Below are positions 17,441 to 35,035 of a stretch of DNA of 35,330 bases, piece after piece. Below the pieces are notes generated by a model. The model did not search any database. It was not told where the DNA came from and saw nothing but the letters and a program-made list of their open reading frames with translations. The stretch spans positions 1 to 35,330 of the forward strand of contig QIGN01000053.1 in assembly GCA_003228955.1 (NCBI GenBank), written 5' to 3'. This stretch comes from Hyphomicrobiales bacterium (lineage in GTDB: Bacteria; Pseudomonadota; Alphaproteobacteria; Rhizobiales; Methyloligellaceae). Position 1 is the first letter of the stretch. Each line of letters starts with the position of its first letter. The translations under genes and the position numbers were made by a program.

Positions 17441-17530
17441 TGAGGCGGGCGTTCGCGCGGGAGATTAAAGAGGCCAGCGGGCAAGGTTTTCATCTGACGC
17501 GCCATCGGGCTATGCTGGCGTGAGTTGCCA

Positions 17531-18514: not shown

Positions 18515-18546
18515 CAGGCGCTATTGAAAAAGGGGAGGGCGGAAGG

Positions 18547-19047
18547 TTGATCAAAGGAATTGTGCCCAGCCTTGTTCTGTTCCTCGCGGTGGCGTTGGCG
18601 GCAGTCCCCTGGGCCCTGCCCGCGGCAGCCGCCTTCATATTGCCGTTGCTCCTGATAATTTTCGTTTTTGTGCTGGCGATGCTGCAAAAGAGCGAACTGC
18701 CGGCCGTGCCGGTATTCGCCGCCGGGTTGCTGATGGATGTATTGACCGCGGGCCCGCTCGGATACTGGGCCGTCATTTTCCTTCTGACCCACACGCTTGC
18801 GGGTGTTTATTCGAGGCGCACCCGGCAAAAACGCTTCACCAATCTGTGGCTTGCCTTCGCCGCAACCGCGGCGGTGGCGGCCATTTTCGGCTGGGCGCTC
18901 GCCTCGATTTACTTTGTGCGGATAATTGACTGGCAACCGATGTTTATCGGCGGCGCCGTGGCGATTGCGCTGTTTCCTCTCATCGCATGGCCGGTGCGCC
19001 ACTTGCTCGGCCTTGTGCCGGCGGCCCGGTTTTCCAGGCAGGGCTGA
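18547..19047 (+). CDS. mreD: Rod shape-determining protein MreD
   Basis: This 166-residue integral membrane protein of the elongasome has about five hydrophobic segments, including VPSLVLFLAVALAAVPWAL, AAFILPLLLIIFVFVLAML and YWAVIFLLTHTLAGVY. PVFAAGLLMDVLTAGPLG is the MreD signature region. The start is a TTG at 18547, chosen because a strong purine-rich ribosome-binding site (GGGGAGGGCGGAAGG) runs up to it and the protein then begins LIKGIVPSLV, as MreD proteins do. The gene sits between mreC and mrdA, 3 bases before the latter, so co-translation is likely. Confidence 0.9.
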   Translation: MIKGIVPSLVLFLAVALAAVPWALPAAAAFILPLLLIIFVFVLAMLQKSELPAVPVFAAGLLMDVLTAGPLGYWAVIFLLTHTLAGVYSRRTRQKRFTNLWLAFAATAAVAAIFGWALASIYFVRIIDWQPMFIGGAVAIALFPLIAWPVRHLLGLVPAARFSRQG

Positions 19048-19050
19048 ACC

Positions 19051-20925
19051 ATGGCGGCGCCAGATCATCGCATCATCAGAAACCGGAGATTTACGCGCCG
19101 TGTGCTGATGCTCGGGGCCGGTCAGCTGGGGTTGTTTGGCGTGCTCGGGTGGAGGTTGCGTCAGCTTCAGGTGCTCGAAGCGCCGAAATACGCGCTTCTT
19201 GCGGAAGAGAACCGGATCAACATCCAGCTTATGGCGCCGAGCCGGGGGCTTATTTTCGACCGGTTCGGCAAGCCGGTGGCCAGCAACGCGGATGCCATGC
19301 GGGTCTTCATTGTTCCGGACCTTTCGAACGACATTGAATACTCCTTGCGTCAGCTCAACGGCGTCATCCCCATTCCGGACCGCGTAGCTGAGCGTGTATT
19401 ACGCCTGGCGCGGCGGCAAAGTTCCTATATTCCCATCGTTGTCGCTGACGATCTGAGCTGGCAGCAATTCGCCCAGGTGAATGTGCTCGCACCGAGTTTG
19501 CCAGGGGTGCAGACCGACATTTTGTCCGTGCGCCAGTATCACGACGGCAAGGACATGGCGCATATCGTCGGCTATGTGGGCGCGGCGGACACGGCCGAAG
19601 TGAACGAAGACCCCGTGACCCGGCTGCCGGGATTTCGCGTTGGCAAGAGCGGTGTGGAACTGGGATTCGAACGCAAACTGCGCGGCAAGGCCGGCATCAT
19701 CAAACTTGAGGTCGATGCCAGAGGCCGGGCGATCCGCAAACTGGATACGCTGCAAAGCCAGCAGGGCAGGGAACTGGTTCTGACCATCGATCAGGAAATC
19801 CAGAACAAGGCAATGGTCCGGCTGGAAGGCCTGCGCCGCGCCGCCGTCGTCGCGCTGGATGCGCGCAACGGCGAAGTGCTTGTCATGGCGTCTACCCCCA
19901 GTTTTGATCCCAACGCGATCATCAGCGGACTGAAAGGGGGCCAGTGGGCATCGATGGCCGAACTGGAAGATGATCCGCTCACCAACAAGGCCATTCGCGG
20001 CCAGTACCCTCCAGGCTCGACATTCAAGATGGTAACGGCCCTCGCCGGGCTGGAATCGGGCCTGATCACCCCCAAGACGAAGTTTCAGTGCTATGGCGGG
20101 TTTTCCTACTCCAATGCCTATTTCGGCTGCTGGAAGAAGCGCGGCCACCGGTCGGTGCAGATGCGCAAGGCCCTCAAGGAGTCCTGCGACGTGTATTTCT
20201 ACAATGTCGCGCTGCGCATCGGCATTACGAAGCTCTCCGCCATGGGCCGCAAGCTCGGGCTCGGCCAGACCTATGAATTCGGTATGCCGCAGCAAAAACC
20301 CGGCGTCATGCCGACACCGGGGTGGAAGCGGGCGACGCTGGGTGAGAAATGGTATGGGGGCGAGACCGTCATTGCCGGTATCGGTCAGGGCTATGTGCTG
20401 ACGACGCCGCTGCAGCTGGCGGTGATGACGGCGCGTATCGCGTCGGGCCGCGAAATAATTCCGCGCATCGTGCGCCCGGAACCTGGAGAACAAATTGAAT
20501 CCCCCAGGAAGCTCGATATCCGTCCGGAATATCTGGAGCTTGTACGCGAGGGCATGTGGGCGGTCGTCAATGAAGGCGGCGGTACGGCCGGGCGCGCGCG
20601 CATTCCCATTGCCGGAGTGGAAATGGCCGGAAAAACCGGAACCTCCCAGGTCAATACAGCTTCGAGTGGACCCCATGGCCCGCTGCTCATATGGGAACAG
20701 CGCGATCATGCGCTTTTTGTCGGCTATGCCCCGGCGGATAATCCGCGCTACGCGGTCGCGGCGATTGTTGAGCATGGCGGCAGCGGGTCGCGCGCGGCCG
20801 CGCCGGTCGTGCGCGACATCATGACGGCTCTGATGGAGCGAGACCCCGTTTCACGCCCCGCATATGTCGCACGCAATGACGCGCCCAGGACGGCGCGGCA
20901 TGAGCGCCGCCGGGGTGAGGGCTGA
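19051..20925 (+). CDS. mrdA: Penicillin-binding protein 2, elongation transpeptidase
   Basis: This 624-residue class B PBP cross-links peptidoglycan during side-wall growth, working with RodA. A membrane anchor lies at about residues 17-35. The PBP dimer domain (about 60-235) starts with MAPSRGLIFDRFGKPVASN. The transpeptidase domain has SxxK at Ser323-Lys326 (PPGSTFKMV), SxD/N as SCD at 378-380, and KTG at 528-530 (AGKTGTSQ). Length is typical. It follows mreD by 3 bases and is followed by rodA after one base, so PBP2 and its partner glycosyltransferase are made together. Confidence 0.96.
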   Translation: MAAPDHRIIRNRRFTRRVLMLGAGQLGLFGVLGWRLRQLQVLEAPKYALLAEENRINIQLMAPSRGLIFDRFGKPVASNADAMRVFIVPDLSNDIEYSLRQLNGVIPIPDRVAERVLRLARRQSSYIPIVVADDLSWQQFAQVNVLAPSLPGVQTDILSVRQYHDGKDMAHIVGYVGAADTAEVNEDPVTRLPGFRVGKSGVELGFERKLRGKAGIIKLEVDARGRAIRKLDTLQSQQGRELVLTIDQEIQNKAMVRLEGLRRAAVVALDARNGEVLVMASTPSFDPNAIISGLKGGQWASMAELEDDPLTNKAIRGQYPPGSTFKMVTALAGLESGLITPKTKFQCYGGFSYSNAYFGCWKKRGHRSVQMRKALKESCDVYFYNVALRIGITKLSAMGRKLGLGQTYEFGMPQQKPGVMPTPGWKRATLGEKWYGGETVIAGIGQGYVLTTPLQLAVMTARIASGREIIPRIVRPEPGEQIESPRKLDIRPEYLELVREGMWAVVNEGGGTAGRARIPIAGVEMAGKTGTSQVNTASSGPHGPLLIWEQRDHALFVGYAPADNPRYAVAAIVEHGGSGSRAAAPVVRDIMTALMERDPVSRPAYVARNDAPRTARHERRRGEG

Positions 20926-20926
20926 C

Positions 20927-22072
20927 ATGTTTGCCGGTTCCCTCGATACACCGCAGTTGAATTTTAGCGAGAAGCTCCTTGCCCTGAACTGGATATTCAT
21001 CGCTTTGATAACCGCACTCGCCGGCGTTGGCGCGGCGGCGCTTTATTCGGTGGCCGGCGGCTCCCTTACGCCCTGGGCGGAAGCCCATGTGATCCGTTAT
21101 TGCCTGGGCCTTGGATTGCTGTTCGCCGTGGCTCTGACGGACATCAAGGTGTGGGTGCGGCTGGCCTATCCGGTCTATCTGCTGGCGCTTCTGCTTCTTG
21201 TAATGGTTCCATTCCTGGGGATTGAAAGCAGCGGAGCGCAGCGCTGGCTGAGTTTGGGCGGTGTCAATCTGCAACCCGCCGAACTCATGAAGGTGGCCCT
21301 GGTCCTGGCCCTGGCGCGCTATTACGAATGGCTGCCCCCCAGACATATTTCAAACCCGCTGGCGCTGATGGTGCCGGCGGTCATGATCGGCGTTCCGGTC
21401 GCGCTGGTTGTGTTACAGCCCGATCTGGGTACCGCGGTGCTGTTTGCCGCGGTTGGCGGCGGAATGCTGTTTCTTGCCGGAGCAAGCTGGATCTACTTTG
21501 TGTTCGGCATCACCGGCGTGCTGGGGGCGCTGCCATTCCTCTGGAATTCCTTATACGACTATCAAAAAGTGCGGGTCATGACCTTCCTCGATCCGGATAA
21601 GGATCCTCTTGGCGCGGGCTATCATATCCTTCAGTCAAAAATTGCCCTGGGTTCGGGGGGCGTCATGGGCAAGGGCTATCTGAAGGGAACGCAGAGTCAG
21701 CTGGACTTCCTGCCGGAAAAACATACGGATTTCATTTTCACGATGTTCGCGGAGGAAATGGGTTTTGTCGGGTCGCTGGGCCTGCTGGCCCTCTATCTTC
21801 TTGTTCTGATGTCCATTGTCTATATGGCGCTGCGCTGCCGGACCCAGTTCGCCCGGCTTGTCGCCGCCGGCGTCGGAATCACAATGTTCGTCTATGTCTT
21901 CATCAATGTCGCCATGGTCATGGGGCTCGTGCCCGTCGTTGGCGTGCCGCTGCCTCTTGTCTCTTATGGCGGCACCTCGATGATTACCCTGATGTTCGGT
22001 TTCGGCCTTGTACTCAATGCCCATTTGCACCGCAGGACCAGGTTCAGGCCCCACGAGGTCGGGGTCATCTGA
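20927..22072 (+). CDS. rodA: RodA, SEDS peptidoglycan glycosyltransferase
   Basis: This polytopic protein of about 381 residues of the SEDS family polymerises glycan strands for cell elongation in complex with PBP2. It has about ten membrane segments. Conserved elements include SSGAQRWLSLGGVNLQPAELMK and LQPDLGTAVLF. Further on are the large periplasmic loop with FLPEKHTDFIFTMFAEEMGF (which holds the catalytic Asp region) and GVPLPLVSYGGTSM near the C-terminus. The start ATG 20927 lies one base after the mrdA stop, with GGGGTGAGGG in front; earlier in-frame ATGs (20864, 20900) would lie within mrdA and add residues not usual for RodA. Confidence 0.95.
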   Translation: MFAGSLDTPQLNFSEKLLALNWIFIALITALAGVGAAALYSVAGGSLTPWAEAHVIRYCLGLGLLFAVALTDIKVWVRLAYPVYLLALLLLVMVPFLGIESSGAQRWLSLGGVNLQPAELMKVALVLALARYYEWLPPRHISNPLALMVPAVMIGVPVALVVLQPDLGTAVLFAAVGGGMLFLAGASWIYFVFGITGVLGALPFLWNSLYDYQKVRVMTFLDPDKDPLGAGYHILQSKIALGSGGVMGKGYLKGTQSQLDFLPEKHTDFIFTMFAEEMGFVGSLGLLALYLLVLMSIVYMALRCRTQFARLVAAGVGITMFVYVFINVAMVMGLVPVVGVPLPLVSYGGTSMITLMFGFGLVLNAHLHRRTRFRPHEVGVI

Positions 22073-23178: not shown

Positions 23179-24474
23179 TTAGCCAACCGTCACGGCAACG
23201 CGGTGCATCGAATTGTTCATGTAACCCTTCGGGTTCCATGCGATGGCATGAGGCTGGCTGACGCCTTTCGAGTCCGTCGCCTTTGCCCATATCTCGTAAT
23301 ATCCCTCCTGTGGGAACGCGACCTCGGTACGCCAGTTCTGCCAGGCATAAGGATTGATGGGCGCATCCAGTGATGCCTTCTGCCACGTCGCGCCGAAATC
23401 AATCGAGATCTGGATGTCTTTCACTGTGCGGTCACCGGCCCAGGCATGTCCGCGAACCTCTATCTTCTTGTCCGAGGTTTTGATGCCGGTTGGCGGGTTC
23501 GTGATAATCGACTTGATGATCATTGATTCGATGAGCACCATTTTCTTCTTGTCGACCTTATCCCCGGGCGCCACGGGACTTGGCGGCAGGCGGTATGCGG
23601 CGCCGGTCATTTTAGGGCCGTCATGGATGACGTCGCGCAGATAAACCCGCGTCAGCCACTTCTGCGAGAATGATCCTGGCCAGCCCGGTATAATCAGCCG
23701 GACCGGCGCTCCGTTCATGGGGTGGATCAGCCCGTCATTCTGGGCGAATGCAATCATGTTTTGCGGTTGCATTGCCTTTTCGATTGGCACGCCGCGCGAT
23801 ATGGGCAGTTTGCCCGGTTTGCCTGACAGATGCGTGTCGGCGCCGACATGAGCGGTGTAAATGGCGTTCTTTTTCACGCCTGCTGCCTTGAGCACGTCAA
23901 CCAGTCTTACGCCCGTCCATTTGGAGCAGGCCACCGCGCCGTAGGTCCACTGGTTGCCCTTTGCTGGCGGGTTAAAAAAGCCACGACCATTGCCGCCGCA
24001 TTCGATCTGAAGCGCCGCTGTCACGACCTCGAACTTCTTTTTCAAATCGTCGATGGAGAGAGTCATGGGCTTGTCGACCAGACCGTCGATTCTGAGTTCC
24101 CAGCCCTTGGCGTCAAAGCTCTCCGGCGCAATGCCATTATTGCGGATGAAATGATTTTTGGTCGGCGTGATCGCGTCATCCAGGAATTGTGGAAGCGTTT
24201 CTGCGTTAACAGGGCGGTCGTTGAAGACGGTCAGGCCGTCCTTGCCTTTAATCATGTCTTGCCCGGCAAACGCGACAGGAATGAAATTGGCCGGCATGTT
24301 GCGGTGGAAGGGAATAGTTGCCCCGACCATGGCGCCCATGGTCGCGAGGCCCGCGCGTTTCAGAAACCCACGCCTGTCGGAATGGGTTTCACGTCCGAAA
24401 AGAAGCTTGTCAGCCTCCTCCGGGTTTTTCCGGTAAAGTTCGAATAAACCTTTGTCAGTGATTTTCTTAAGCAT
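23179..24474 (-). CDS. Tat-exported sulfite-oxidase-family molybdoenzyme (SorA/SoxC-like)
   Basis: This 431-residue periplasmic oxidoreductase is expected to oxidise sulfite to sulfate and pass electrons to cytochrome c. The N-terminus has a twin-arginine signal (SDRRGFLKRAGLAT, Arg34-Arg35) after an unusually long charged n-region of about 32 residues. The molybdopterin domain contains the probable Mo ligand Cys159 in ALQIECGGNGRGFF, followed by WTYGAVACSKWTGVRL and PVRLIIPGWPGSFSQKWL. A C-terminal dimerisation domain includes EVRGHAWAGDRTVKDIQISID. It has no own heme domain, consistent with the separate cytochrome downstream. An ECF-type promoter lies about 63 bases upstream. A SoxC-like role in thiosulfate oxidation is less likely because no other sox genes are present. 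Confidence 0.88.
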   Translation of the reverse strand: MLKKITDKGLFELYRKNPEEADKLLFGRETHSDRRGFLKRAGLATMGAMVGATIPFHRNMPANFIPVAFAGQDMIKGKDGLTVFNDRPVNAETLPQFLDDAITPTKNHFIRNNGIAPESFDAKGWELRIDGLVDKPMTLSIDDLKKKFEVVTAALQIECGGNGRGFFNPPAKGNQWTYGAVACSKWTGVRLVDVLKAAGVKKNAIYTAHVGADTHLSGKPGKLPISRGVPIEKAMQPQNMIAFAQNDGLIHPMNGAPVRLIIPGWPGSFSQKWLTRVYLRDVIHDGPKMTGAAYRLPPSPVAPGDKVDKKKMVLIESMIIKSIITNPPTGIKTSDKKIEVRGHAWAGDRTVKDIQISIDFGATWQKASLDAPINPYAWQNWRTEVAFPQEGYYEIWAKATDSKGVSQPHAIAWNPKGYMNNSMHRVAVTVG

Positions 24475-24536
24475 TCTGTCCCTCCCTTGATCGAGCCGGC
24501 ACAGGATTCGTTCCTGAAAGAGCTCATTAAGGAAGA

Positions 24537-24562
24537 AACGTTTCGCAGTGCGTATTTATTCC
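24537..24562 (-). promoter_or_regulatory. ECF sigma-type promoter of the sulfite dehydrogenase genes
   Basis: Reading the minus strand, GGAAT (24562-24558), a 17-base spacer and CGTT (24540-24537) form the GGAA-N16/17-CGTT pattern typical of alphaproteobacterial ECF sigma factors. It lies in the 119-base gap between the anti-sigma gene and the molybdoenzyme gene, about 63 bases before the start codon. This is a proper distance for a 5' leader. Confidence 0.65.
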
Positions 24563-24593
24563 CTCGAAAAGAACAGTTTTTCAATAATACTTT

Positions 24594-25367
24594 TCAGGCG
24601 CGGCAGGGTGGACTCGTCAGGCGTGCCTGAGCGAGTTGCAGGCGGGTGCCGCTATCCAGCTCCTGGCCCGATCTCAGGGCCTTCTCTACGGCGCTGGCAA
24701 GGCTATTAAAGCGTGTCTTCGCCATGCCGTCGGCCATAAGCGCGAATGCGTCCTGTTTGATTTCCCATGTCTGAAACAGAAGAGAGGGCGAGAAACCTTT
24801 CCCGTCGAGGGCGATACCAGCCGGGAAGACATAGAGGCTCACACGGCAACCGCGCGTCCCTTCGTATCCGATTCGCAATATCCGCCGCCCCGAAAATTCC
24901 ATCTCATCAAATCCAGTGAATGTCAGGCGGGCGGACTTCAGATCAAGCGGCAGCAGTTTTGCAACATCACGGGCGGAAACCAGACTCACACCCGCTTCGC
25001 GCTTCTGGAAAGACCAGCTTGTGTGATGTTTTTGCAGGAAGGCGGCCCACCGAACCTCCGCCGGTTCCACCCAGGCATTGAGATAAAGCATCGTGGTAAC
25101 CGTCATAATGGCAATACTCGCCGCCGCGGCCATGGCAATCCGTCCAAGCGGAAACCCGTCCTGTTCGGGGAGCTTGAGCTTTCGATCAGGTATGATCTCC
25201 GCCACAGCGGCCTTCATTTCACGTAATGTCGCAATCTGCGAGGCTATCACCGGGCTGTCGACCGCCGCCCTCGAGACGCTGGCCTCATCGCCACGCGACA
25301 GCTCGCCGTCGACATAGGCGTTCAGTGTTTCGGCTCTGATATTTGTCTGGCTCATCATTCTTGTCAT
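24594..25367 (-). CDS. Membrane-bound anti-sigma factor
   Basis: This is a 257-residue protein with a cytoplasmic N-terminal anti-sigma domain (about residues 10-65, TLNAYVDGELSRGDEA, a typical start of the fold), one membrane segment (about 76-96, IAMAAAASIAIMTVTTMLYL) and a periplasmic domain of about 155 residues. There is no HxxxCxxC zinc motif. The periplasmic domain (DVAKLLPLDLKSARLTF... RGCRVSLYVFP) resembles that of other transmembrane anti-sigma factors of the RsiW/ChrR-neighbour type, but I cannot assign it further. The start codon overlaps the sigma stop (ATGA). It is expected to hold the ECF sigma inactive until a periplasmic signal arrives; sulfite is the obvious candidate from context. 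Confidence 0.8.
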   Translation of the reverse strand: MTRMMSQTNIRAETLNAYVDGELSRGDEASVSRAAVDSPVIASQIATLREMKAAVAEIIPDRKLKLPEQDGFPLGRIAMAAAASIAIMTVTTMLYLNAWVEPAEVRWAAFLQKHHTSWSFQKREAGVSLVSARDVAKLLPLDLKSARLTFTGFDEMEFSGRRILRIGYEGTRGCRVSLYVFPAGIALDGKGFSPSLLFQTWEIKQDAFALMADGMAKTRFNSLASAVEKALRSGQELDSGTRLQLAQARLTSPPCRA

Positions 25368-25903
25368 GCGCTTGTTTTACGAGCTGGGAGAAATTCAATT
25401 TTCCCGTCGGCTGTCGTTTCCTGAACTAGTTGGTATAACGCGGCGCGGGAACGTGAAATGCGACTCATTACCGTACCCACGGGAACATCGAACAGCTCCG
25501 AAGCTTCCGAATATGTCAAACCTGCAATATCGATCGCGGCCAGAATTTCCCGCTTTTCGAGGGACAGCCGGTCGAAGGCGAACCGTACCGTCAGCGCATT
25601 TACTTCACGGGTTTCCGACCAGTTGCACCAGCCCGTTTCAGTTACAAGCTCCGATCCGACAAACTCATTTTCCTGTTTTACGGATTTGCGGGTATGGTCA
25701 ATCATAATATTGCGCATAATTCTGAACAGCCATGCCCTGTAGGCTGATTCATCATACGGAACGCGCCGGGCGGCCAGCGCTTTCACCACCGTGTCATGAA
25801 CCAGGTCTTCGGCCTTGTCCGCATCATGCGTGAGGCTGTAAGCGAAGCCAAAGAGCCGCTTCAAATAGGACTCAAGACGATTCCGCCGGTGCGCGCGAAG
25901 CAT
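25364..25903 (-). CDS. ECF-type RNA polymerase sigma factor
   Basis: This 179-residue sigma factor has only regions 2 and 4. Region 2 contains AYSLTHDADKAEDLVHDTVVKAL and YRAWLFRIMRNIMIDHTRK. Region 4 has LSLEKREILAAIDIAGLTYSEASELFDVPVGTVMSRISRSRAAL, with the helix-turn-helix that reads the -35 element. The start ATG 25903 is preceded by a purine-rich stretch on the minus strand. The gene overlaps the anti-sigma gene by 4 bases. The most likely target is the GGAAT-N17-CGTT promoter before the molybdoenzyme gene; autoregulation is not evident because I find no such motif in front of the sigma gene itself. Confidence 0.92.
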   Translation of the reverse strand: MLRAHRRNRLESYLKRLFGFAYSLTHDADKAEDLVHDTVVKALAARRVPYDESAYRAWLFRIMRNIMIDHTRKSVKQENEFVGSELVTETGWCNWSETREVNALTVRFAFDRLSLEKREILAAIDIAGLTYSEASELFDVPVGTVMSRISRSRAALYQLVQETTADGKIEFLPARKTSA

Positions 25904-26228: not shown

Positions 26229-27005
26229 CTATTCGCGCTCAAGCTCGCCGATGCGGCGGGTGAACATGATCAAATAAAACAGCAGGAAGAGATAAAGATA
26301 GATCTCCGTCGCTTCTGAAGGGCGCATGACGAGCGAGGGAATCTGAAAAGCGTCCTGCAGCGAGCCTGTCGCCTTGAACAGCGCCGCGCCAAGGGCGATC
26401 GGGACGATCGCATCGGGCGGAAAGAACAGTGACCAGCGATTTGCGCGTATCGCCGGATAAAACATCGCAAGCAGTGGCAGAATAAGCCCGCCGATCAGGA
26501 TACCAAGTTCCAGTACCACCCGAGGTTTTTTTCCGAAAACAGAACTGGCATTGTGCAGGTTGGTTTCCTGCTGCCGGTTGATCTCCGCCCAGCTTTCAGG
26601 CGTCTGCCAGCCGAAGAAATGCTGGCCCCAGCTATATTCCTCGCCCGCGATATAAAAACAGCTCAGGGCCGCAAGGCTAAGGAATATGAACACCAGCCGG
26701 CGCGAACGAACAAAGGGCCGGAACAGCAGCCGCAACGCAACCACCATGGCGGCAACGGCGATGAAGAATTGCCCCTGCTCAAGGAACCCCCGGCCTTCAG
26801 GGAGAATCCAGGTTGCATAAAATTCTCTTGAAACCGCTTGAGCGCCAATCAGGAAAATTGTCAGCAATACGGGAATGCCGAGCCACCACCAGGCCTCGTT
26901 CCAGCCTGGACCGCTGGCAAACGGCGTAAAGGGGCCCGTGCGCCGCTCCGGATCGGGCAGGTTTGCGTCCGCGCCGGTTCCGCTCTTGATATTGTTTTGG
27001 GGCAT
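26229..27005 (-). CDS. Polytopic membrane protein of unknown function with a conserved-looking polar motif
   Basis: This is a protein of about 258 residues with a polar N-terminus (about 1-35) and roughly six membrane segments, for example WWWLGIPVLLTIFLIGAQA, FIAVAAMVVALRLLF, LVFIFLSLAALSCFYIAG and ELGILIGGLILPLLAMFY. Between segments lies a polar stretch, GEEYSWGQHFFGW followed by NRQQETNLHNAS, of a type I associate with uncharacterised membrane proteins. The ATG at 27005 follows GGAAGG closely; an in-frame ATG at 27086 is possible. It stands alone on the minus strand, divergent from the secretion genes, so no role can be read from context. Confidence 0.68.
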   Translation of the reverse strand: MPQNNIKSGTGADANLPDPERRTGPFTPFASGPGWNEAWWWLGIPVLLTIFLIGAQAVSREFYATWILPEGRGFLEQGQFFIAVAAMVVALRLLFRPFVRSRRLVFIFLSLAALSCFYIAGEEYSWGQHFFGWQTPESWAEINRQQETNLHNASSVFGKKPRVVLELGILIGGLILPLLAMFYPAIRANRWSLFFPPDAIVPIALGAALFKATGSLQDAFQIPSLVMRPSEATEIYLYLFLLFYLIMFTRRIGELERE

Positions 27006-27399
27006 TTGACCTTCCGCCACTCCGGCATGGTGGTATCGGCGATGCTTTAGCACCCTTTTCGGGGGTGCTGAGTATAGAACACTCACCCGGTTTTTCCCAG
27101 ATGGCTTGCGCGAACAGGGAGGAATGATTGCCGGTCTGAGTCACTCAGGATGACGGAAATCAAGCCGGGACGAGACCCGATTTTCATACACAGCCGATGT
27201 CCATGCCAGTCACGATTTTTTGAACCGCGCCATGGCCCCCATGGCGGAAATCCGGCCGCCATTGTCCGCGCGCGTGGCCCTTTGCGAAAATCAGGCCCTC
27301 AGGCAGATCCTATGGTTAACGAAAGGCAAAGGAATAGGAGGTAGGAGGAATTGGAAACAAGAACACTCGTGAAATGACGGCAGCACCGAAAATAGGCCG
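27006..27399. other. Divergent intergenic region before the secretion operon
   Basis: These 394 bases separate the membrane-protein gene from the first ABC transporter gene. An inverted repeat AGCACCC (27049-27055)/GGGTGCT (27063-27069) lies in the leader of the minus-strand gene. A 13-base palindrome CTGAGTCACTCAG is at 27136-27148. A purine-rich run at 27330-27350 resembles a ribosome-binding site but has no good start after it. No promoter motif is clear and no gene is supported. Confidence 0.4.
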
Positions 27400-29607
27400 A
27401 TGATGGACGATCAATTGGTCCAAGAGGCGAAGGACGGCGGGGATCGCCCGACTGTCCGGAGTTTGCGCAATCGTCTGAGGACTGAATATGAAACCGCCAA
27501 GGGCGCCGGCGTGCCCGCCAAAAGGTCGTGGCTGAAGCGCAAGGCAAAGCCGAAAAAGTCCGATCCGGCGGCCGCGGCTTCACCCGCGCCCGTATCCGCA
27601 CCTGCCCCGGCCGTTGGCGTATCCCGGAATCCATCCCGATCCGCGCCGGCTTCCGCGCCCCCGCCGCGGCATGAGGAGGGTGATGCGCACCCGCGCCAAC
27701 CAGAGACGACTGCCAGGTCAATGCCCGGCGCCAGGCCGAAAAAAAACAGGAATGGCCCATTGTCACGGACCATCGCCCGGTTTGCGGCAAAATCGAAGGC
27801 GAGGTCAAGAGCAAAGGAGAGGTCAAAAGCAAAGGCGAAGCAAAAAGCAAAGGCGAAGCAAAAAGCAAAGGAGGTGCCAGTAACCACGGAAGGGCAAGAA
27901 TCCCGCGATCTTGGCGGCTTCCTTGAAATCTTCAAGGCGGGCCTGCTGCTGCCGGCTCCCATTATTGTGGCGTCCGTTATTTCCACCCTCCTCGGGCTGG
28001 CATTGCCGCTGGCGGTGCTGCAAATCTATGACCGCATTCTCCCCAACCAGTCTGTCGATACGCTCACGCTGCTCACGCTGGGTCTGTTTGCCGCCTTTGC
28101 ACTGGATGCCGTGCTGAAAGTCATGCGCTCCTATCTGCTGGGGTGGAATGCAGTCCATTCCGGCTTCGACGCGCAGCTTACGGCGGTAAAGCGCCTTCTC
28201 AGGGCGCCGCACGCCAAGGTGGAGAAAGAGCCCCCCGCGATTTGGGTCGATGGCCTGGAAGCCGTACGTGAACTGAGCGCGTTTGAGGGGGGGCAATCGC
28301 GCCTGCTCACCCTGGATATCCCTCTTGCCAGCATTTTTCTCATTATGCTGGGCCTTGTCGGGGGAGTTCTCATCATCGTGCCGATCTTGCTGATTTTCGG
28401 GTTTGGCGCACTGGCTGCGATGCACGGTTCGCGTTTGCAAAAGGTATTGGCCGTCCGCTCGGAGCAGGACAACCGCAAGCATGATTTTCTGGTTGAGTGC
28501 CTGAGCGGCATTCACACTCTGAAGGGCCTGGCCATGGAGCCGATGATTCTGCGCCGTTTCGAACGGTTGCAGAAGGGCTCGGCGGTTGCCAGCTACGACA
28601 CCATCCTGCTCGGCAACAACCTTCAGTCCATGGGTGTCCTGTTCGCCAACCTGATGATGATTTCCGTGGTTTCGGTGGGGGCTCTGCTGGTCATGTCCGG
28701 CAGCCTCAGCATTGGCGGGCTTGCCTGTAGCTCGCTGCTTTCGGGACGGCTGACACAGCCGGTGCTGCGCGGCATCCACATGTGGACGGAATTTCAGAAC
28801 ATAAAACTGGCTCAGGAACGCGCCGGAAAATTTGGCAAGCTCGAGACGGACGCCATTGCCGCAACGCCCGCGGACGGTGAAATCAATGGCGCCATCGAGT
28901 TGAATAATGTGGGATTCCAGTATTCCGGCGTGGAAGATAGCGCCTGCCTGACCGGCATCTCGTTGCAGGTGCGCCCGGGGGAGTTCGTCGGCATCAAGGG
29001 CGAGGGCGGCAGCGGCCGTTCAACCCTGGTGAAGCTCATCACCGGGGACCTTGAACCCACCAGCGGAAGCGTGGTCATAGGCGGGCTGACTTCACAGCCG
29101 GATCGCGAGCATTTGCAAGTGAAGGACATGGCGTATGTTTCGGCTGCTACGGCGACGTTCAGGGGCACCGTTCTGGAAAACATCACAATGTTTCGCCCCG
29201 GCGCGGCGGTCGAGGCGGCGCAACAGGCGGCCAAACTCATAGGGCTGGAAGAGGAAATCCACCGTTTGCCGGAGGGCTATGACACACCGCTTGCCCAGGG
29301 TGTGGCCCAGGAACTCTCCTCGGGAATGCTGCAGCGTATCTCCATTGCGCGGGCGCTCGCGCGCAACCCGAAAATCCTGATCTTCGATGAGGCGAATTCC
29401 CTACTCGATTTCCAGAGCGACGCGGCACTTCGTCAAGGGTTGATGAGCCTCAAGGGCACGATGACGGCGATCATTGTCTCCAACCGGCCGTCCTTTCTTG
29501 CTATTTCCGACAAAATCTATGCGCTCAAGGACGGCAGGCTGGAGTCGCAGAATGAGAGCGGAGAAAGCAGCGCTACCCATGCGTCCCGGCAAGGATCGGC
29601 GGCATGA
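27400..29607 (+). CDS. Type I secretion ABC permease/ATPase, first subunit, with degenerate ATPase motifs and a basic N-terminal extension
   Basis: This is a 735-residue half-transporter. Residues 1-160 are a Pro/Ala/Lys-rich, probably disordered extension ending in a repeated KAKAKQ-type basic stretch. A six-helix ABC exporter membrane domain (about 175-450) starts at FKAGLLLPAPIIVASVIST and carries LPLAVLQIYDRILPNQS, typical of PrtD/LapB-type exporters. The ATPase domain (from about 500) has altered motifs. Walker A is GEGGSGRST (534-542, Arg540 in place of Lys), the signature is LSSGM (639-643), and the H-loop position is Asn695 (VSNRP). Walker B Asp663 and catalytic Glu664 are intact. The stop overlaps the next gene start by 4 bases, suggesting a heterodimer with it. 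The start is ATG 27400 or 27403. Confidence 0.9.
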   Translation: MMDDQLVQEAKDGGDRPTVRSLRNRLRTEYETAKGAGVPAKRSWLKRKAKPKKSDPAAAASPAPVSAPAPAVGVSRNPSRSAPASAPPPRHEEGDAHPRQPETTARSMPGARPKKNRNGPLSRTIARFAAKSKARSRAKERSKAKAKQKAKAKQKAKEVPVTTEGQESRDLGGFLEIFKAGLLLPAPIIVASVISTLLGLALPLAVLQIYDRILPNQSVDTLTLLTLGLFAAFALDAVLKVMRSYLLGWNAVHSGFDAQLTAVKRLLRAPHAKVEKEPPAIWVDGLEAVRELSAFEGGQSRLLTLDIPLASIFLIMLGLVGGVLIIVPILLIFGFGALAAMHGSRLQKVLAVRSEQDNRKHDFLVECLSGIHTLKGLAMEPMILRRFERLQKGSAVASYDTILLGNNLQSMGVLFANLMMISVVSVGALLVMSGSLSIGGLACSSLLSGRLTQPVLRGIHMWTEFQNIKLAQERAGKFGKLETDAIAATPADGEINGAIELNNVGFQYSGVEDSACLTGISLQVRPGEFVGIKGEGGSGRSTLVKLITGDLEPTSGSVVIGGLTSQPDREHLQVKDMAYVSAATATFRGTVLENITMFRPGAAVEAAQQAAKLIGLEEEIHRLPEGYDTPLAQGVAQELSSGMLQRISIARALARNPKILIFDEANSLLDFQSDAALRQGLMSLKGTMTAIIVSNRPSFLAISDKIYALKDGRLESQNESGESSATHASRQGSAA
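27811..27874 (+). repeat. 18-bp in-frame tandem repeats encoding a Lys-rich stretch
   Basis: Two identical 18-base units, GCAAAGGCGAAGCAAAAA, at 27829-27846 and 27847-27864 are flanked by a diverged copy at 27811-27828 and a partial copy at 27865-27874. They encode the repeated K-A-K-Q type segment in the N-terminal extension of the first ABC protein. Because the unit is a multiple of three, gain or loss of copies would keep the frame. Confidence 0.85.
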
Positions 29608-31853
29608 CGGCGCCGGGCACACCGGAAACGGCGGGAGGCGCCGCCGGTTCAACCGCGGGTTCTGTTCCCGATCCCGGCGAAAGCGGCAATCGCGTGCATG
29701 AATTGCAGGGCCGGCTCGGGTCTGCCCTGGGCGCGGACAAACTGGCCAGGCTCGATGACTCAACACCGGCGGCGGCTTGCCTGAAGCCGCTCCTCCTGGC
29801 GCTTGAGTGGTCCGGGCAGGAAAGGCATCTGATGGAGGCGCTGCCTCATCTCGAGCCGCTCCACGACATTGACGATCTGCGCGCCCTGCTGGCGCGGATC
29901 AGATACCGCACCACGCATCGCTCATTCAGGCGCTCCGATATCAGGCCGGGAATGCTGCCCTGCCTGTTCAGCCAGGAGGACGGAGAAAGGGTTTCGGTTA
30001 TCCTTGCCATTGAGCCGGACGGAAGTTTGCTCACCTTCGACGGCATGAAGAAATCCGTGGTCCAGATGCCGGCGGATGGGACCTCGGGCGATGTCTATCT
30101 GGTATCGCCCATCAAGGGCGATGATATTTTTGAAACCATACACAAGCATGGCTGGGTGCAATATGCGTTCGGCCGGTTCCGGAGGTCCATTGCCACCGTT
30201 TTTGCTCTGGCATTCGCCATAAACATACTGGCGCTGACAGTTCCGATTTACGTCATGAACGTCTATGACAAGGCGATCGGGGCGAAATCGCCGATGACGC
30301 TGGTTTACTTCCTCACCGGGATACTCCTGCTCGTGGCATTCGAGATGGGACTGCGCGCGGTTCGCGCACGCGTTATCGCCTTTCTCGGCGCCCGCTTCGA
30401 GAGTCTGGTCACCATCGCCGCGATGCAGCAGTTGCTTAATCTGCCGCTGGCGATGACAGAAACGGCTCCTATTTCGGCGCAGATTTCCCGGCTGAAGCAA
30501 TTCTCCAGTATCCGCGATTTGTTCGTTGGGCAGCTTGGCAGTGCGCTCACGGATCTCCCATTCGTATTCGTATTTCTCGGCACCATTTTTTTGATCAGCG
30601 GCCCGCTTGGCTTCATCCCCCTGGCCCTGTTCGTCCTTTTCCTGATCGCGGCGATTGCGACAGTTCCCCTTACCCGGCGCCGCACCCGTCTCGCCGGAGA
30701 TGCCAATACCCGGGTGCGTGATTTCGCCATGGAGCTTGCCGACAAGCGCCGGTCCGTGCGTGAGAATGGCGCAGAGGAAATCTGGATTGAGCGCTGCAAG
30801 GAGCTGTTCAGTAACTATCTGCTGCGCCAGTTCAAGGCACAGCAATTCAACACCATGCTGCAGACCGCATCGCAGATGCTGGTGATGGTGACCGGTATCT
30901 CAACGGTCTCCTACGGTGCGGTGATGGCGCTTGACGGCAATCTGAGCGTTGGCGCACTGATTGCCGTTATTGCACTTGTCTGGCGGCTGCTTTCGCCCAT
31001 CCAGTCCATTTTTCTGGGGCTCAACCAGATCGGGCAGGGCATAGACACGATGAAACAGATCAACAATCTGATGCGGATGCAGCCCGAGCGCCGTGCCAAC
31101 CAGATGGCGACGGTAGGCCGCAAATATTATGGCAACATATCCATCGTCGAGGCGGGTTTCCGCTATTCCGCTCAGTCCGAAGCCGTGCTGCGCGGCGTAA
31201 CTCTCGATATTCCCGCCGGACAGGTGGTTGCAATCACCGGCAATTCAGGCGCCGGTAAATCCACGTTGCTTAAGCTGGCGGCAGGCCTGTACCGCCCGCA
31301 AATGGGCGCCGTGCGCGCCGATGGGCTCGATCTGCGGCAGGTCGATCCAGCCGAATACCGGCAAGCGGTGGCCTATGTGCCCGAGGCGCTGGATGTCTTC
31401 TACGGCACGGTGGCGCAAAATCTGAAATTGGCCGATCCGGAAGCCACGCGCGAAGCGATGATGAAGGCGCTCGAGGAAGCTGGCGCGGACAATTTCGTCA
31501 AATCACTTCCAGAAGGCCTGGATACGCGGATAAGAACCGTCGATCAGCGGGCCTGGACCGATGGAACGCTGCAACAGCTGATACTCGCCCGTGCCTATGT
31601 AAAGGAATGTCCCATTTACCTGCTGGATGATCCGGGCGGGCGGCTTGACAGGGCTGGAGACGAGGCCTTCATAAGAAAAATCAAGAGTTTGTCCGGCCGC
31701 GCCACGGTTCTTCTGGTCACGCACCGCCCAAGCCACATGCGCTGCGCCGACCGGGTTGTCGTTCTTGATCGCGGCCAAATTGCCGCCGACGGGCCTCCAG
31801 ACGAGGTTGTTCCCGCGCTCCTCGAACAGATGCAGGAGAGGAAAGTTAGCTAA
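29604..31853 (+). CDS. Type I secretion ABC permease/ATPase, second subunit, with C39-like N-terminal domain
   Basis: This is a 749-residue protein. After a Gly/Pro-rich start, residues about 30-165 resemble the C39 peptidase-like domain of LapB/HlyB-type exporters (ACLKPLLLALEWSGQ, SLLTFDGMKK). No Cys-His catalytic pair is apparent, so it is probably a non-cleaving substrate-docking domain. The membrane domain (about 195-470) begins IATVFALAFAINILALTVPIYVMNVYDKAIG. In the ATPase domain Walker A is intact (GNSGAGKST 546-554, Lys552), as is the H-loop His707. The signature is WTDGT (651-655) in place of LSGGQ, and Walker B reads LLDDP, with Asp676 where the catalytic Glu is usual. The start overlaps the previous stop (ATGA). 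Confidence 0.92.
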   Translation: MTAPGTPETAGGAAGSTAGSVPDPGESGNRVHELQGRLGSALGADKLARLDDSTPAAACLKPLLLALEWSGQERHLMEALPHLEPLHDIDDLRALLARIRYRTTHRSFRRSDIRPGMLPCLFSQEDGERVSVILAIEPDGSLLTFDGMKKSVVQMPADGTSGDVYLVSPIKGDDIFETIHKHGWVQYAFGRFRRSIATVFALAFAINILALTVPIYVMNVYDKAIGAKSPMTLVYFLTGILLLVAFEMGLRAVRARVIAFLGARFESLVTIAAMQQLLNLPLAMTETAPISAQISRLKQFSSIRDLFVGQLGSALTDLPFVFVFLGTIFLISGPLGFIPLALFVLFLIAAIATVPLTRRRTRLAGDANTRVRDFAMELADKRRSVRENGAEEIWIERCKELFSNYLLRQFKAQQFNTMLQTASQMLVMVTGISTVSYGAVMALDGNLSVGALIAVIALVWRLLSPIQSIFLGLNQIGQGIDTMKQINNLMRMQPERRANQMATVGRKYYGNISIVEAGFRYSAQSEAVLRGVTLDIPAGQVVAITGNSGAGKSTLLKLAAGLYRPQMGAVRADGLDLRQVDPAEYRQAVAYVPEALDVFYGTVAQNLKLADPEATREAMMKALEEAGADNFVKSLPEGLDTRIRTVDQRAWTDGTLQQLILARAYVKECPIYLLDDPGGRLDRAGDEAFIRKIKSLSGRATVLLVTHRPSHMRCADRVVVLDRGQIAADGPPDEVVPALLEQMQERKVS

Positions 31854-31905: not shown

Positions 31906-33240
31906 ATGTGGCAGCCCAGCTGGAGCAGCGAGCCAGATATCCGGGGCCAGCGCTTCACTTTGCCTGCGGAACTGGAAGATGGACGCATCCCGCATATGTT
32001 CGGGAAGCTCACCAACCTGTTCTGCATGCTGTTTGTGGCCGCGCTCGTTTGGGCGTCTTTCGCCGAAATGCGCGAGTTGGCCATCGGCCAGGGCGAAATC
32101 ATGCCTTCGGGCTATGTCCAGACCATCCAGCACCTGGAAGGCGGGCAGGTCGCAAGCATTGAAGTGCGTGAAGGGCAGCAGGTCGAAGCCGGTACGGTGC
32201 TGATGCATCTGAGCCTGGTATCAGCCGCCAGCGATCTCAATCAGCTCCAAATCCGGGCGGCGAATTTGCGCCTGCAGAAGGAGGCGTTGAGCGCGCTCAT
32301 CGACGAGCGAGAGCCCGCCCTCCTGGAGACCGGGAAAGATTATCCCGGTCTGGCCGCCGAACAACTTCAGGTCTACACCTCCAAACGCAATCAGATATCT
32401 TCGGAATTGCGCGCCGCAAAGGCCAGGGTCTTGCAGCGCCAAGCAGAATTCGAGGCGGCTAAACTGGAGGCGGAAAGTCTGTCCCGCCAGATAGAGATCA
32501 ACAAGGAGCAGCTTGCGATCCGGGCCAATCTGCTGAAATCCGGATACACATCGCGCCGCGCGTACCTGGAGGCCAAGGGATCCCTGGAAGACGCCAGGGC
32601 GCGGCATTTCTCCATTTCCGGACGGCGCGAATCCGCCAGGGAACAACTCAACGAGGCAAAAAGCGTACTCGAGGGAAGCAAGGCGGAAAGCCTTAAACAG
32701 CTCAACGAGGAACGCTCCAAATATTCCATGGAACTTGCCGAACTCGAGCAGCAAATCAGCAAATATGAGGACCGCGTGGACCGGTTGGCCGTGAAGTCAC
32801 CCATCCGCGGCATCGTACAGGAATTGGCGCAGAAAACGCCGGGCGAGGTGGTGCGGCCTGGCGATCTGGTTGCAAAGGTCGTCCCTCTCGATTCAAGCGT
32901 TGTCGCCGAGGTGCGCATCGATCCCAAGGACATTGGCCATGTGAAGGTTGGCGACAAGGTTGAGGTCAAACTCTCGACATTCGACCCGAATGTGTTCGGT
33001 ACCATCACCGGCAAGATTGACGTCGTTTCCGCTTCCACCTTCAAAAACGAGGATGGCAAACCCTATTACAAGGTTGTCGTCGCGCTCGACCAGCGCTTTG
33101 TCGGTAAGGGAAACCGGCGGCGCCTTATCCAGCCAGGTATGGTCGCGGAAGCCAATATCATCACGGGCTCCAAATCGCTCGTCAGATACCTCCTGAAGCC
33201 GGTCTACCGTTCTCTCGACATTGGCTTTTCAGAGCGATAG
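31906..33240 (+). CDS. HlyD-family periplasmic adaptor (membrane fusion protein) of the type I secretion system
   Basis: This 444-residue adaptor links the inner-membrane ABC exporter to the outer-membrane channel. A short cytoplasmic N-terminus precedes a membrane segment (about residues 33-53, KLTNLFCMLFVAALVWASF). The first lipoyl half-motif is at about 70-103 (VQTIQHLEGGQVASIEVREGQ). A long alpha-hairpin coiled coil follows (about 105-290, with QLNEERSKYSMELAELEQQI). The second lipoyl half and beta-barrel start at DRLAVKSPIRGIVQEL and continue to RRLIQPGMVAEANIITG, the common HlyD C-terminal signature. GGAG lies about 12 bases before the ATG. It follows the second ABC gene by 52 bases in the same operon. 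Confidence 0.95.
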   Translation: MWQPSWSSEPDIRGQRFTLPAELEDGRIPHMFGKLTNLFCMLFVAALVWASFAEMRELAIGQGEIMPSGYVQTIQHLEGGQVASIEVREGQQVEAGTVLMHLSLVSAASDLNQLQIRAANLRLQKEALSALIDEREPALLETGKDYPGLAAEQLQVYTSKRNQISSELRAAKARVLQRQAEFEAAKLEAESLSRQIEINKEQLAIRANLLKSGYTSRRAYLEAKGSLEDARARHFSISGRRESAREQLNEAKSVLEGSKAESLKQLNEERSKYSMELAELEQQISKYEDRVDRLAVKSPIRGIVQELAQKTPGEVVRPGDLVAKVVPLDSSVVAEVRIDPKDIGHVKVGDKVEVKLSTFDPNVFGTITGKIDVVSASTFKNEDGKPYYKVVVALDQRFVGKGNRRRLIQPGMVAEANIITGSKSLVRYLLKPVYRSLDIGFSER

Positions 33241-33321: not shown

Positions 33322-33406
33322 GAGACGTACAACATGCTGTTCCCAATAGAGAATCGGCGCGTTCCGTTGAGCCGGCGTGCAACAGGGTCACAGACGGAAA
33401 CAGCAA

Positions 33407-35035
33407 ATGCAGTTGAACCGGAAGCTCTTGCGTGCCGTGCGGGGGTGCTGTTCACGGGGACGGGCGGTTTCGTTCCGTAATGTGGCTTGTGTATCGGCTC
33501 GCCTCACATGCTGTTCGCTCGTGTTGGCGCTGCTGGTTTCCGGTACGGTTCCGGTGCTTTCGCAGACTCTGAATGAGGCTCTTACCCGTGCTTTTGCCGG
33601 CAATCCGGGGCTCGATGCGGAACGCGCCCGCCAGCGCGCGGATGAGGAAAACATCAAGCTGGAGCGAGCCAAGAGGCTGCCGGATATTTCCCTGGATGCT
33701 TACAGAGGCGGTGAACAAAGCCGGCTCAATTCCGCCTCGCCTACGAGCAAGACCGATAGCGACGGTTACGCCCTGACGCTGACCCAGCCCCTGTTCCGGG
33801 GCTTTCAGACACGAAACGGCACGCGCCGTGCAAAAGCTGAAGTGCGGGCGGGCGGGGCGCAACTGCACAACCGCGAGCAAAGTGTCCTGCTGGACGCCGC
33901 CACCGCCTACATGGATGTGGTCCAGGACCGCAAGATCGTGAAACTCAGGCGGGGTAATGTTCGCTCCCTCAATGCCGAACTGAAAGCCTCAAAGGCGCGT
34001 TACAAGGCCGGCGATCTGTCCAGGACCGATGTCGCCCAGGCGCGCACACGGCTGTTCGAGGGCAAGGCGGATCTCGCCCAGGCGCAGGCGGACGTGGACG
34101 CCAGCGAGGCGAGCTTTGAGGCGATTGTCGGGCAACCTCCAGGTGCACTCACCACGCCGCGCGCGCCGCGCGGGATGCTGCCGCCCACCCTTGAGGCGGC
34201 ACTGGGCGTAGCGGAAAGCACCAGCCCGGCCATTATAGGCGCGTTGCATCAGCAGGAAGCCGCGCGCAGGGCCAAACGGGAAGCCTATGGCGCGCTGCTG
34301 CCGTCGCTCTCGCTCGAACTCAGCCATGGTATCGACAACAACCCGTCTGAGGTGATTGACAAGGAACAGGTATCCTCGCTCTTCGTGCGCCTGAAGATGC
34401 CGCTATACCGGGGCGGCGAGCTGCGTTCGCGGGTCCGTCAGACGCGGGCGAGGGAAACCGGAGCGAGCTATGAGGTCACCGATTCGCGGCGCCGCACGCG
34501 GGCGGATGTCATTGATGCCTGGAAGCAGCTTCATGCCGCGCGGGCGCGTATCAAAGCCGCGCGTCAGCAGGTCAGGGCGGCCCGCGAGGCCCTCAAGGGT
34601 GTCAGGATAGAGGTCAATGTCGGGGAGCGTGCCTTGTTCGAGGTTCTTGATGCCCAGCGCGAGCTGATCAATGGCGAGGTGGCGCTGGCGCGCGCGCAAC
34701 GCGACCATGTGGTGTCCGGCTATGTGCTGCTTGCCGCGACCGGGCGCCTGACCGCGCTGTATCTGAACCTGCCGGTTGACTATCCCGATCTCGACGACGC
34801 GGTGCGCAAAAAGCGCTGGTTCGCGAATGACGCGGCCACGGACGGCGCTCCCGCCTCCCCGCTACTGTTAGCCCCGGCGGACACGGCGGCTGAAGACAAG
34901 ATAGATGTGCTGGTGCTGGAGCCGCCCGCACCGCGCCAGCCGGCCCAGGCTCAGTGGACCACTTCCGTCACCGAAGTGCCGGTGCCGGACCGCGCCCGGT
35001 TTACGACTGCGTCGAAGCCTGCCAGGGCTCCTTGA
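33407..35035 (+). CDS. TolC-family outer-membrane channel of the type I secretion system
   Basis: This is a protein of about 542 residues. It has a long basic n-region and a hydrophobic signal core (about residues 32-50, LTCCSLVLALLVSGTVPVLS), with the mature part starting near QTLNEALTRAF. Two repeated OEP domains follow, with the usual motifs: LTQPLFRGFQTRNGTRRA, then AATAYMDVVQDRKIV, and in the second half VRLKMPLYRGGELRSRVRQ and LFEVLDAQRELINGEV. The end NLPVDYPD is followed by about 80 Pro/Ala-rich residues beyond the normal TolC core. ATG 33407 was chosen because it gives a more usual signal peptide; GTG 33377 in the same frame is possible. Its stop overlaps the next start (TTGA). Confidence 0.93.
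   Translation: MQLNRKLLRAVRGCCSRGRAVSFRNVACVSARLTCCSLVLALLVSGTVPVLSQTLNEALTRAFAGNPGLDAERARQRADEENIKLERAKRLPDISLDAYRGGEQSRLNSASPTSKTDSDGYALTLTQPLFRGFQTRNGTRRAKAEVRAGGAQLHNREQSVLLDAATAYMDVVQDRKIVKLRRGNVRSLNAELKASKARYKAGDLSRTDVAQARTRLFEGKADLAQAQADVDASEASFEAIVGQPPGALTTPRAPRGMLPPTLEAALGVAESTSPAIIGALHQQEAARRAKREAYGALLPSLSLELSHGIDNNPSEVIDKEQVSSLFVRLKMPLYRGGELRSRVRQTRARETGASYEVTDSRRRTRADVIDAWKQLHAARARIKAARQQVRAAREALKGVRIEVNVGERALFEVLDAQRELINGEVALARAQRDHVVSGYVLLAATGRLTALYLNLPVDYPDLDDAVRKKRWFANDAATDGAPASPLLLAPADTAAEDKIDVLVLEPPAPRQPAQAQWTTSVTEVPVPDRARFTTASKPARAP

Follow-up and report, generated by a model that had tools for sequence, protein, structure and literature searches.

Paired type I secretion ABC subunits in a Hyphomicrobiales bacterium apparently represent a family of heterodimeric exporters whose ATP sites are repeatedly altered

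The window analyzed here, a 35,330-nucleotide stretch (contig QIGN01000053.1, assembly GCA_003228955.1) from a Hyphomicrobiales bacterium of the Methyloligellaceae, carries two adjacent genes for type I secretion ATP-binding cassette (ABC) proteins, subunits A and B, which apparently belong to a large family of heterodimeric type I exporters. Heterodimers with one degenerate ATP site are known; what is unusual here is that even the better site can lose its catalytic Glu, as it has, the window included, in 39 of the 158 pairs that could be read at every motif residue (17 of their 85 clusters at 60% identity).

Two composite ATP sites in the window

Subunits A (27400..29607, + strand, 735 amino acids [aa]) and B (29604..31853, + strand, 749 aa) are permease/ATPase half-transporters, of which only B has a C39-like domain. 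Their open reading frames (ORFs) share 4 bp, both frames are open, and they are followed on the same strand by genes for an HlyD-type membrane fusion protein (31906..33240, 444 aa; TIGR01843, 334.7 bits, cut-off 208.65) and a TolC-type outer membrane channel (33377..35035, 552 aa, with a later start possible; TIGR01844, 310.3 bits, cut-off 225.15), the latter ending 295 bases before the contig does. By gene content, with an inner-membrane ABC exporter, an HlyD-type adaptor, and a TolC-type channel all present, this is a complete type I secretion operon. The best-scoring NCBIfam models for A and B are the type I models LssB, HlyB, and PrtD (A, 331.7, 292.1, and 254.5 bits; B, 435.3, 301.3, and 305.4 bits), and all six scores lie well below the curated cut-offs (693.1, 725.55, and 510.15), so that neither protein is assigned to any of these three subfamilies. 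Type I exporters are marked by a bulky plus a hydrophilic residue in transmembrane helix 6 (TM6) and by an FxT motif in TM3, as a section of PMC8277102 describes. Alignments place the TM6 Trp of type I exporters at Trp462 in A (followed by Thr463) and Trp460 in B (followed by Arg461), and at the TM3 position Phe295 of A aligns with Phe264 of HlyB, but Gly297 replaces the Thr; B reads Phe307-x-Gly309 there, a placement made by eye.

In an ABC dimer, each ATP site consists of the Walker A, Walker B, Q-loop, and H-loop elements of one subunit plus the signature of its partner (part of PMC7756269). The motifs were read by position and confirmed by alignment of A and B to HlyB and P-glycoprotein; the motif coordinates given here are on the + strand. 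Site 1, formed by the Walker motifs of A and the signature of B, has Arg540 for the Walker A Lys (GEGGSGRST, 28999..29025), Ala582 for the Q-loop Gln (29143..29145), Asn695 for the H-loop His (29482..29484), and WTDGT as its signature (31554..31568, from residue 651 of B), with the catalytic Glu664 in place (29389..29391). Site 2, formed by the Walker motifs of B and the signature of A, has a normal Tyr521, Lys552 (31257..31259), Asp675, and His707 (31722..31724) and a near-normal signature, LSSGM (29314..29328, from residue 639 of A), and deviates in Asp676 for the catalytic Glu (31629..31631) and Glu594 for the Q-loop Gln (31383..31385). Site 1 fits the classical degenerate site in carrying changes at several motifs, among them the signature supplied by the partner, though Glu664 is retained. 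Site 2 is not the canonical, Glu-bearing site that would complete the classical pattern, given Asp676 and Glu594, and judged by these elements, neither ATP site of the window pair is complete.

The original prediction named eight residues and motifs (Arg540, Glu664, Asn695, LSSGM, Lys552, Asp676, His707, and WTDGT), and all of them hold. Its view that site 1 is altered at three motifs is borne out by Arg540, Asn695, and WTDGT, to which Ala582 is added; its view that site 2 differs mainly by Glu-to-Asp is right about Asp676 but overlooks the replaced Q-loop Gln, the changes at Ala582 and Glu594 both being missing from it. It also described the defects as split between both subunits. The residues are indeed so placed, but with the signature acting in trans they fall mostly into one degenerate composite site; what really stands out is the Glu-to-Asp replacement in the better one.

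The six single residues are the same in the three other readable pairs of the genus, L036, L037, and L038, whose signatures read LSSGM or LSSGL in A and WTDGV or WTDGR in B. Asp at the catalytic-Glu position of B is common to these three and to a further relative, L039, in which Cys replaces the Walker A Lys. Since the six residues are identical in L036, L037, and L038, and their counterparts are nearly invariant in 55 control proteins (see below), sequencing error or chance is very unlikely as the cause of the altered residues.

Extent of the pair family and erosion of its ATP sites

A profile of A found at least 526 contig stretches encoding some relative (ABC relatives generally, not solely A), of which the best 80 were taken, from Alpha- and Gammaproteobacteria plus a few unclassified metagenome-assembled genomes; A is present in all 80 of these. 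At E ≤ 1e-140, the window's order yielded matches in 69 of 397 genomes and its class in 40 of 385, the window's own genome being in both counts. Altogether 186 loci were examined, some genomes twice, and A was recovered from 185 (L223, with a stop in frame, gave none). B adjoins A on the same strand in 173 of these 185 loci; among the other 12, 11 have less than 1.2 kb of contig left and one (L064) has B broken into two frames. Removing identical pairs left 163, of which 158 were readable at every motif residue. A and B are fused into one reading frame in four loci, two on Azospirillum plasmids and two in other genomes, and an HlyD gene lies behind B in all 68 loci with at least 1.6 kb of room, with TolC within 6 kb in 8 of 54. 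A plasmid search at 1e-60 gave four Azospirillum records, and among 14 pattern matches in viral contigs there was no relative of B. A FastTree phylogeny built from 25 A, 25 B, and 55 control proteins, with three long control branches, recovers all A proteins in one clade and all B proteins in another (support of 100 each), and the support separating A plus B from the controls is only 63. Given this value, a sister relationship of A and B was dropped. We found no description of this pair family in the open-access literature, subscription papers being outside the search. Judged from gene order, the A-B pair is a widespread family that is inherited as a unit.

These observations bear on whether A and B are instead two separate, neighboring homodimeric exporters, which we consider very improbable. 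In its favor, the models give each subunit a complete membrane domain and a nucleotide-binding domain (NBD) of its own; yet two copies of A would lack the Walker A Lys altogether, two copies of B would bring Asp676 together with the WTDGT signature, adjacency is near-invariant, fusions exist, and a single HlyD gene stands behind the pair in the window.

Across the 158 pairs, the Walker-side elements are better kept in B than in A: the A-loop Tyr is retained in 147 B and 69 A proteins, the Walker A Lys in 155 and 109, the Q-loop Gln in 113 and 73, the Walker B Asp in 157 and 129, and the H-loop His in 95 and 60. The D-loop Asp is present in 144 B and 158 A proteins. The fourth signature residue, Gly, is retained in 116 A and 75 B proteins (by cluster, A is better in 29, B in 4, and 52 are equal). 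Walker-side damage in A combined with signature-Gly damage in B is the pattern predicted for one degenerate composite site in a heterodimer, and when seven elements are scored, site 2 comes out closer to canonical in 68 of 85 clusters and site 1 in 6, with 11 equal. None of the 316 signatures reads LSGGQ, and Pro predominates at the second signature position, where 126 of the 158 A and 82 of the 158 B proteins have it. The original prediction asked whether the substitutions recur in adjacent pairs of other genomes; they do so, as single residues, within the genus, but the wider family varies.

The erosion extends to the better site. Where B has lost its catalytic Glu (39 pairs), the replacement is Asp in 19, Asn in 12, Ser in 4, Thr in 2, and Lys in 2. 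The loss is concentrated in the window's order: 27 of 50 pairs labeled by that order only and 8 of 22 labeled Hyphomicrobiales (the name of the window's nearest named relatives), along with 2 of 6 without a label (the window included), 1 of 13 Rhodospirillales, and 1 of 13 alphaproteobacteria without an order. It was found in none of 37 other genomes of the class, 4 pairs of other named alphaproteobacterial orders, or 13 gammaproteobacterial pairs. Neither site has both Walker A Lys and catalytic Glu in 21 of 158 pairs (11 clusters, window included), a count that is on the low side, as eroded Walker A motifs are uncertain and a lone aligned Lys was scored as retained. This state requires at least six changes on the tree. 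Neither site has Lys, Glu, and His together in 70 of 158 pairs, and 27 of 158 have all three in both sites. Among the first 80 loci, loss of the A Lys seemed strikingly coupled to loss of the B Glu, but phylogenetically independent pairs gave a median P of 1, and we do not claim it.

It is possible, though in our view doubtful, that the window pair is an ordinary degenerate/consensus heterodimer in which Asp676 is a sufficient carboxylate and site 2 is active, with turnover like that of TM287/288 or TmrAB. Site 2 does have Tyr521, Lys552, Asp675, His707, and the near-normal LSSGM; Glu is present in B of most pairs (119 of 158); and sites with Asp still hydrolyze ATP, slowly, in the transporters covered in part of PMC7756269. 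The published cases described there, however, have the Asp in the degenerate rather than the working site, and 20 of the 39 lost-Glu pairs have Asn, Ser, Thr, or Lys, none of them a carboxylate, indicating that the tolerance is not specific to Asp.

Among the 55 type I-like control ABC proteins, the Lys is present in 55, the catalytic Glu in 53, the His in 46, and both Lys and Glu in 53; their signatures are LSGGQ in 33 and LSAGQ in 14. These controls were not drawn at random: 30 come from loci of the best PrtD-model matches, 20 are hand-picked lower scorers, of which a few are perhaps not type I exporters, and 5 were found earlier. Nine of the 55 are without the His, and L247, L257, L260, L264, L275, and L294 are PrtD-like, otherwise canonical proteins with Gln in its place.

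Extreme forms were also observed. The Gly-Lys of Walker A is wholly gone from A (e.g., GNHTSDDKH) in L076, L078, and L091 (Cohaesibacter) and L089 and L110 (Maritalea), where, in addition, the Walker B Asp of A is replaced by Glu (LEEAN, MEEAN); the Gly-Lys is likewise gone in L160, L161, L163, L164, L167 to L171, L174, L175, L178, L183, L184, and L187. In pairs of this kind, B retains the Glu but has Gln instead of the H-loop His. In the pairs of another genus (code g38; L166, L173, L176, L177, L180, L181, L186, and L191), B carries Asn or Ser at the catalytic-Glu position and lacks the H-loop His wherever that residue could be read, and A has a Walker A eroded around a lone Lys; the ratio of nonsynonymous to synonymous substitution rates (dN/dS) between L173 and L177 is only 0.03 to 0.06.

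Architecture, putative cargo, and selection

Single-chain AlphaFold2 models of both subunits match HlyB and PrtD structures. For A (mean predicted local distance difference test score [pLDDT], 78.2), residues 182 to 724 match HlyB 8dck_B with a Z score of 28.5 and a root mean square deviation of 3.1 over 541 aligned residues; for B (mean pLDDT, 81.5), the best Foldseek match is HlyB 8dck_A over 686 columns. The C39-like region of B (residues 55 to 182; 29766..30149, + strand) is modeled as a folded alpha/beta domain inside the alignment with full-length HlyB; it has no Pfam peptidase match, and it occurs in all 163 distinct pairs (at least 90 of 128 positions aligned). In A, fewer than 110 residues precede TM1 in 154 of 163 pairs (median, 46); the window's A is among the nine exceptions with at least 110, its TM1 starting near residue 186 behind a Lys-rich, mostly unstructured N-terminal extension (residues 1 to 168; 27400..27903, + strand) with low pLDDT over most of its length. 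As read from these lengths and models, A usually has no room for a C39-like domain, and the cargo-docking C39-like region sits on B. In both HlyB/HlyD structure entries, chain A has 691 to 700 modeled residues and chain B has 570, aligned from residue 151 or 152 on. These modeled chain lengths suggest that just one of the two C39-like domains is ordered in the HlyB homodimer, an asymmetry that the A-B family may have fixed in its genes.

With respect to the cargo, 59 loci have 1.5 kb or more of sequence upstream, and in 35 of them a divergent acidic ORF (at least 300 aa, with acidic residues in net excess by 6% or more) starts within 900 bp of A. Six large divergent ORFs were scanned: cadherin-type domains were found in five (L036, L055, L076, L086, and L027), RTX repeats in all but L086, and Ig-like, Long Rib, and pentraxin/laminin-G domains in some. 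L036 and L027 come from the window's genus, and L025, from the same genome as L027, has an ORF of the same adhesin kind cut by the contig end. Judged from these neighborhoods, the cargo of the family is likely cadherin/RTX adhesins. A search of the window's genome with the L036 adhesin gave no match at 1e-10, and such a search shows little. RTX proteins are encoded elsewhere in this genome, at L243 (contig C86) and L246 (contig C117), a serralysin-like M10 protease and a FecR/RTX protein; they are possible type I substrates.

The position upstream of A, where many relatives have the adhesin gene, is occupied in the window by a divergent gene (26229-27086, - strand) for a 285-aa protein without a Pfam match. 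Farther upstream, the stretch at 23179-25903 (- strand) comprises an ECF-type sigma factor gene (25364-25903, - strand), a 257-aa ORF without a Pfam match behind it, and a molybdopterin-binding oxidoreductase, possibly a sigma/anti-sigma-controlled unit. A cell-shape cluster at 16403-22072 (+ strand) encodes MreB, MreC, a penicillin-binding protein, and an FtsW/RodA-type protein.

Both genes appear to be maintained, since dN/dS (NG86) is low in all 12 hand-picked species pairs (0.042 to 0.218 for A, 0.024 to 0.127 for B; dS exceeds 1 in several, making those values uncertain), and a pseudogene reading was rejected on the same values. Between the window and L037, the ratios are 0.218 for A, 0.323 for its NBD, 0.127 for B, and 0.091 for its NBD, so that the ATPase domain of A is the least constrained part in the window lineage, and some relaxation of A is possible. 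A rival reading is degeneration in progress, in which the pair of the window lineage would be losing its function while another exporter of the genome does the work. Three control proteins of the same genome (L003, L004, and L005) have Lys, Glu, and His; the window shows no linked cargo gene; of 8 members of the genus, the window counted and some genomes being incomplete, 4 yielded A; and the NBD ratio of A is the highest of the set. We nevertheless regard degeneration as quite improbable: the frames are open and coupled and are followed by intact HlyD and TolC genes, whole-gene dN/dS is 0.22 for A and 0.13 for B, and L036 and L038 share the window's single residues at about 70% (A) and 80% (B) identity. 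The original prediction took canonical relatives to point to sequence error or local decay. Canonical pairs do exist, the 27 noted above, but they do not point to decay, because dN/dS is low, the altered state is genus-wide, and at least six changes fall on the tree. It appears, rather, that within one order the ATP sites have been eroded again and again in genes that selection continues to maintain.

A working model and its place among known exporters

Taken together, we consider it likely that A and B are the two halves of a single heterodimeric type I exporter. It would act together with the operon's HlyD- and TolC-type proteins, transport a very large cadherin/RTX adhesin, as the relatives suggest, and hydrolyze ATP slowly. 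Inheritance as a pair, the fusions, the one-sided C39-like region, and the damage clustered in one composite site make the proposed heterodimer, and with it the unusual ATP-site asymmetry of the original prediction, well supported at the sequence level. B would be the ATP-binding subunit, as it retains the A-loop Tyr, Walker A Lys, and Walker B Asp, with the site of A itself degenerate. ATP bound at site 2 would close the dimer, and site 1 would be structural or a poor ATP holder. With the catalytic Glu of site 2 replaced by Asp and its Q-loop Gln by Glu, hydrolysis would be slow and would mainly reset the machine, with Ca2+-driven folding of the adhesin outside helping to pull the chain through. 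In the known transporters treated in part of PMC7756269, Asp for Glu leads to slow hydrolysis, and nucleotide binding alone is enough for substrate translocation by TmrAB; the idea of a Ca2+ ratchet is present in a section of PMC13274458.

Several observations weigh against this model. Retention of the catalytic Glu barely differs between the subunits (114 of 158 in A, 119 in B), and the signature Ser runs opposite to the trans pattern, being retained in 42 of 158 B and 15 of 158 A proteins. No divergent acidic ORF was found in 24 of the 59 loci, there is no adhesin gene within the window, where the 285-aa protein is the upstream neighbor of A, and none beside the pair of the nearest relative (L037/L024), where the neighbor in L024 is a metallophosphoesterase. 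The dN/dS of the A NBD between the window and L037 (0.32) is the highest of the set. Finally, secretion by the PrtD exporter requires ATP hydrolysis, according to a passage of PMC8277102, which is a problem for a weak ATPase.

The same requirement is why we think it unlikely that, in the window's order, the exporter has become an ATP-gated conduit, in which ATP at the B site opens or shuts the channel, hydrolysis has ceased to provide the power stroke, and the main driving force for export is Ca2+-dependent folding outside the cell, perhaps together with the proton gradient. If that were true, the recurrent disappearance of the catalytic Glu, the H-loop His, and one Walker A Lys, next to near-constant ATP-binding residues in B, would reflect selection for slow or absent hydrolysis.

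Returning to the proposed, slowly hydrolyzing heterodimer, its closest parallels come from two directions. With the homodimeric HlyB, LssB/LapB, and PrtD exporters, the A-B pair shares the fold, the operon with HlyD and TolC, the TM6 Trp and, on B, the C39-like region; it differs in consisting of two different paired subunits with that region on only one of them, in lacking LSGGQ throughout, in the repeated loss of catalytic residues, and in scoring below the model cut-offs. With TM287/288, TmrAB, BmrCD, and TAP (and the extremes Pdr5 and ABCG5/G8), it shares the concentration of most changes in one composite site, and passages of PMC7756269 report Lys-to-Arg in ABCG5/G8, as in the window's A, and Lys-to-Cys in Pdr5, as in L039. 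The degenerate-site heterodimers described there retain the catalytic Glu in the working site, whereas the A-B family also includes the pairs that have lost it, along with those without Lys plus Glu in either site, and its likely cargo is a giant protein exported with HlyD and TolC partners. Two further systems are related in outline. In Vibrio MARTX secretion, two type I ABC proteins, RtxB and RtxE, are apparently both needed for a very large RTX protein; compared by the description in part of PMC3034196, the gene order rtxBDE places an HlyD-type gene between the ABC genes, unlike in the A-B pair. The BapP cluster of Pseudoalteromonas tunicata, as presented in part of PMC12153261, has tandem ABC genes (EAR30320/EAR30321) beside a Ca2+-dependent cadherin-like adhesin, and its authors modeled the ABC pair as a heterodimer; unlike A-B, it has a separate LolD-like ATPase subunit.

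The mechanism of type I exporters requires further elucidation, as a passage of PMC8277102 states. The A-B family offers a natural series of catalytic variants, from near-canonical pairs to pairs with both sites damaged, with low dN/dS in every measured species pair. Such a series bears on whether hydrolysis, ATP binding, or folding outside the cell moves a chain of thousands of residues, and the family would extend the degenerate-site heterodimers by a large group of protein exporters.

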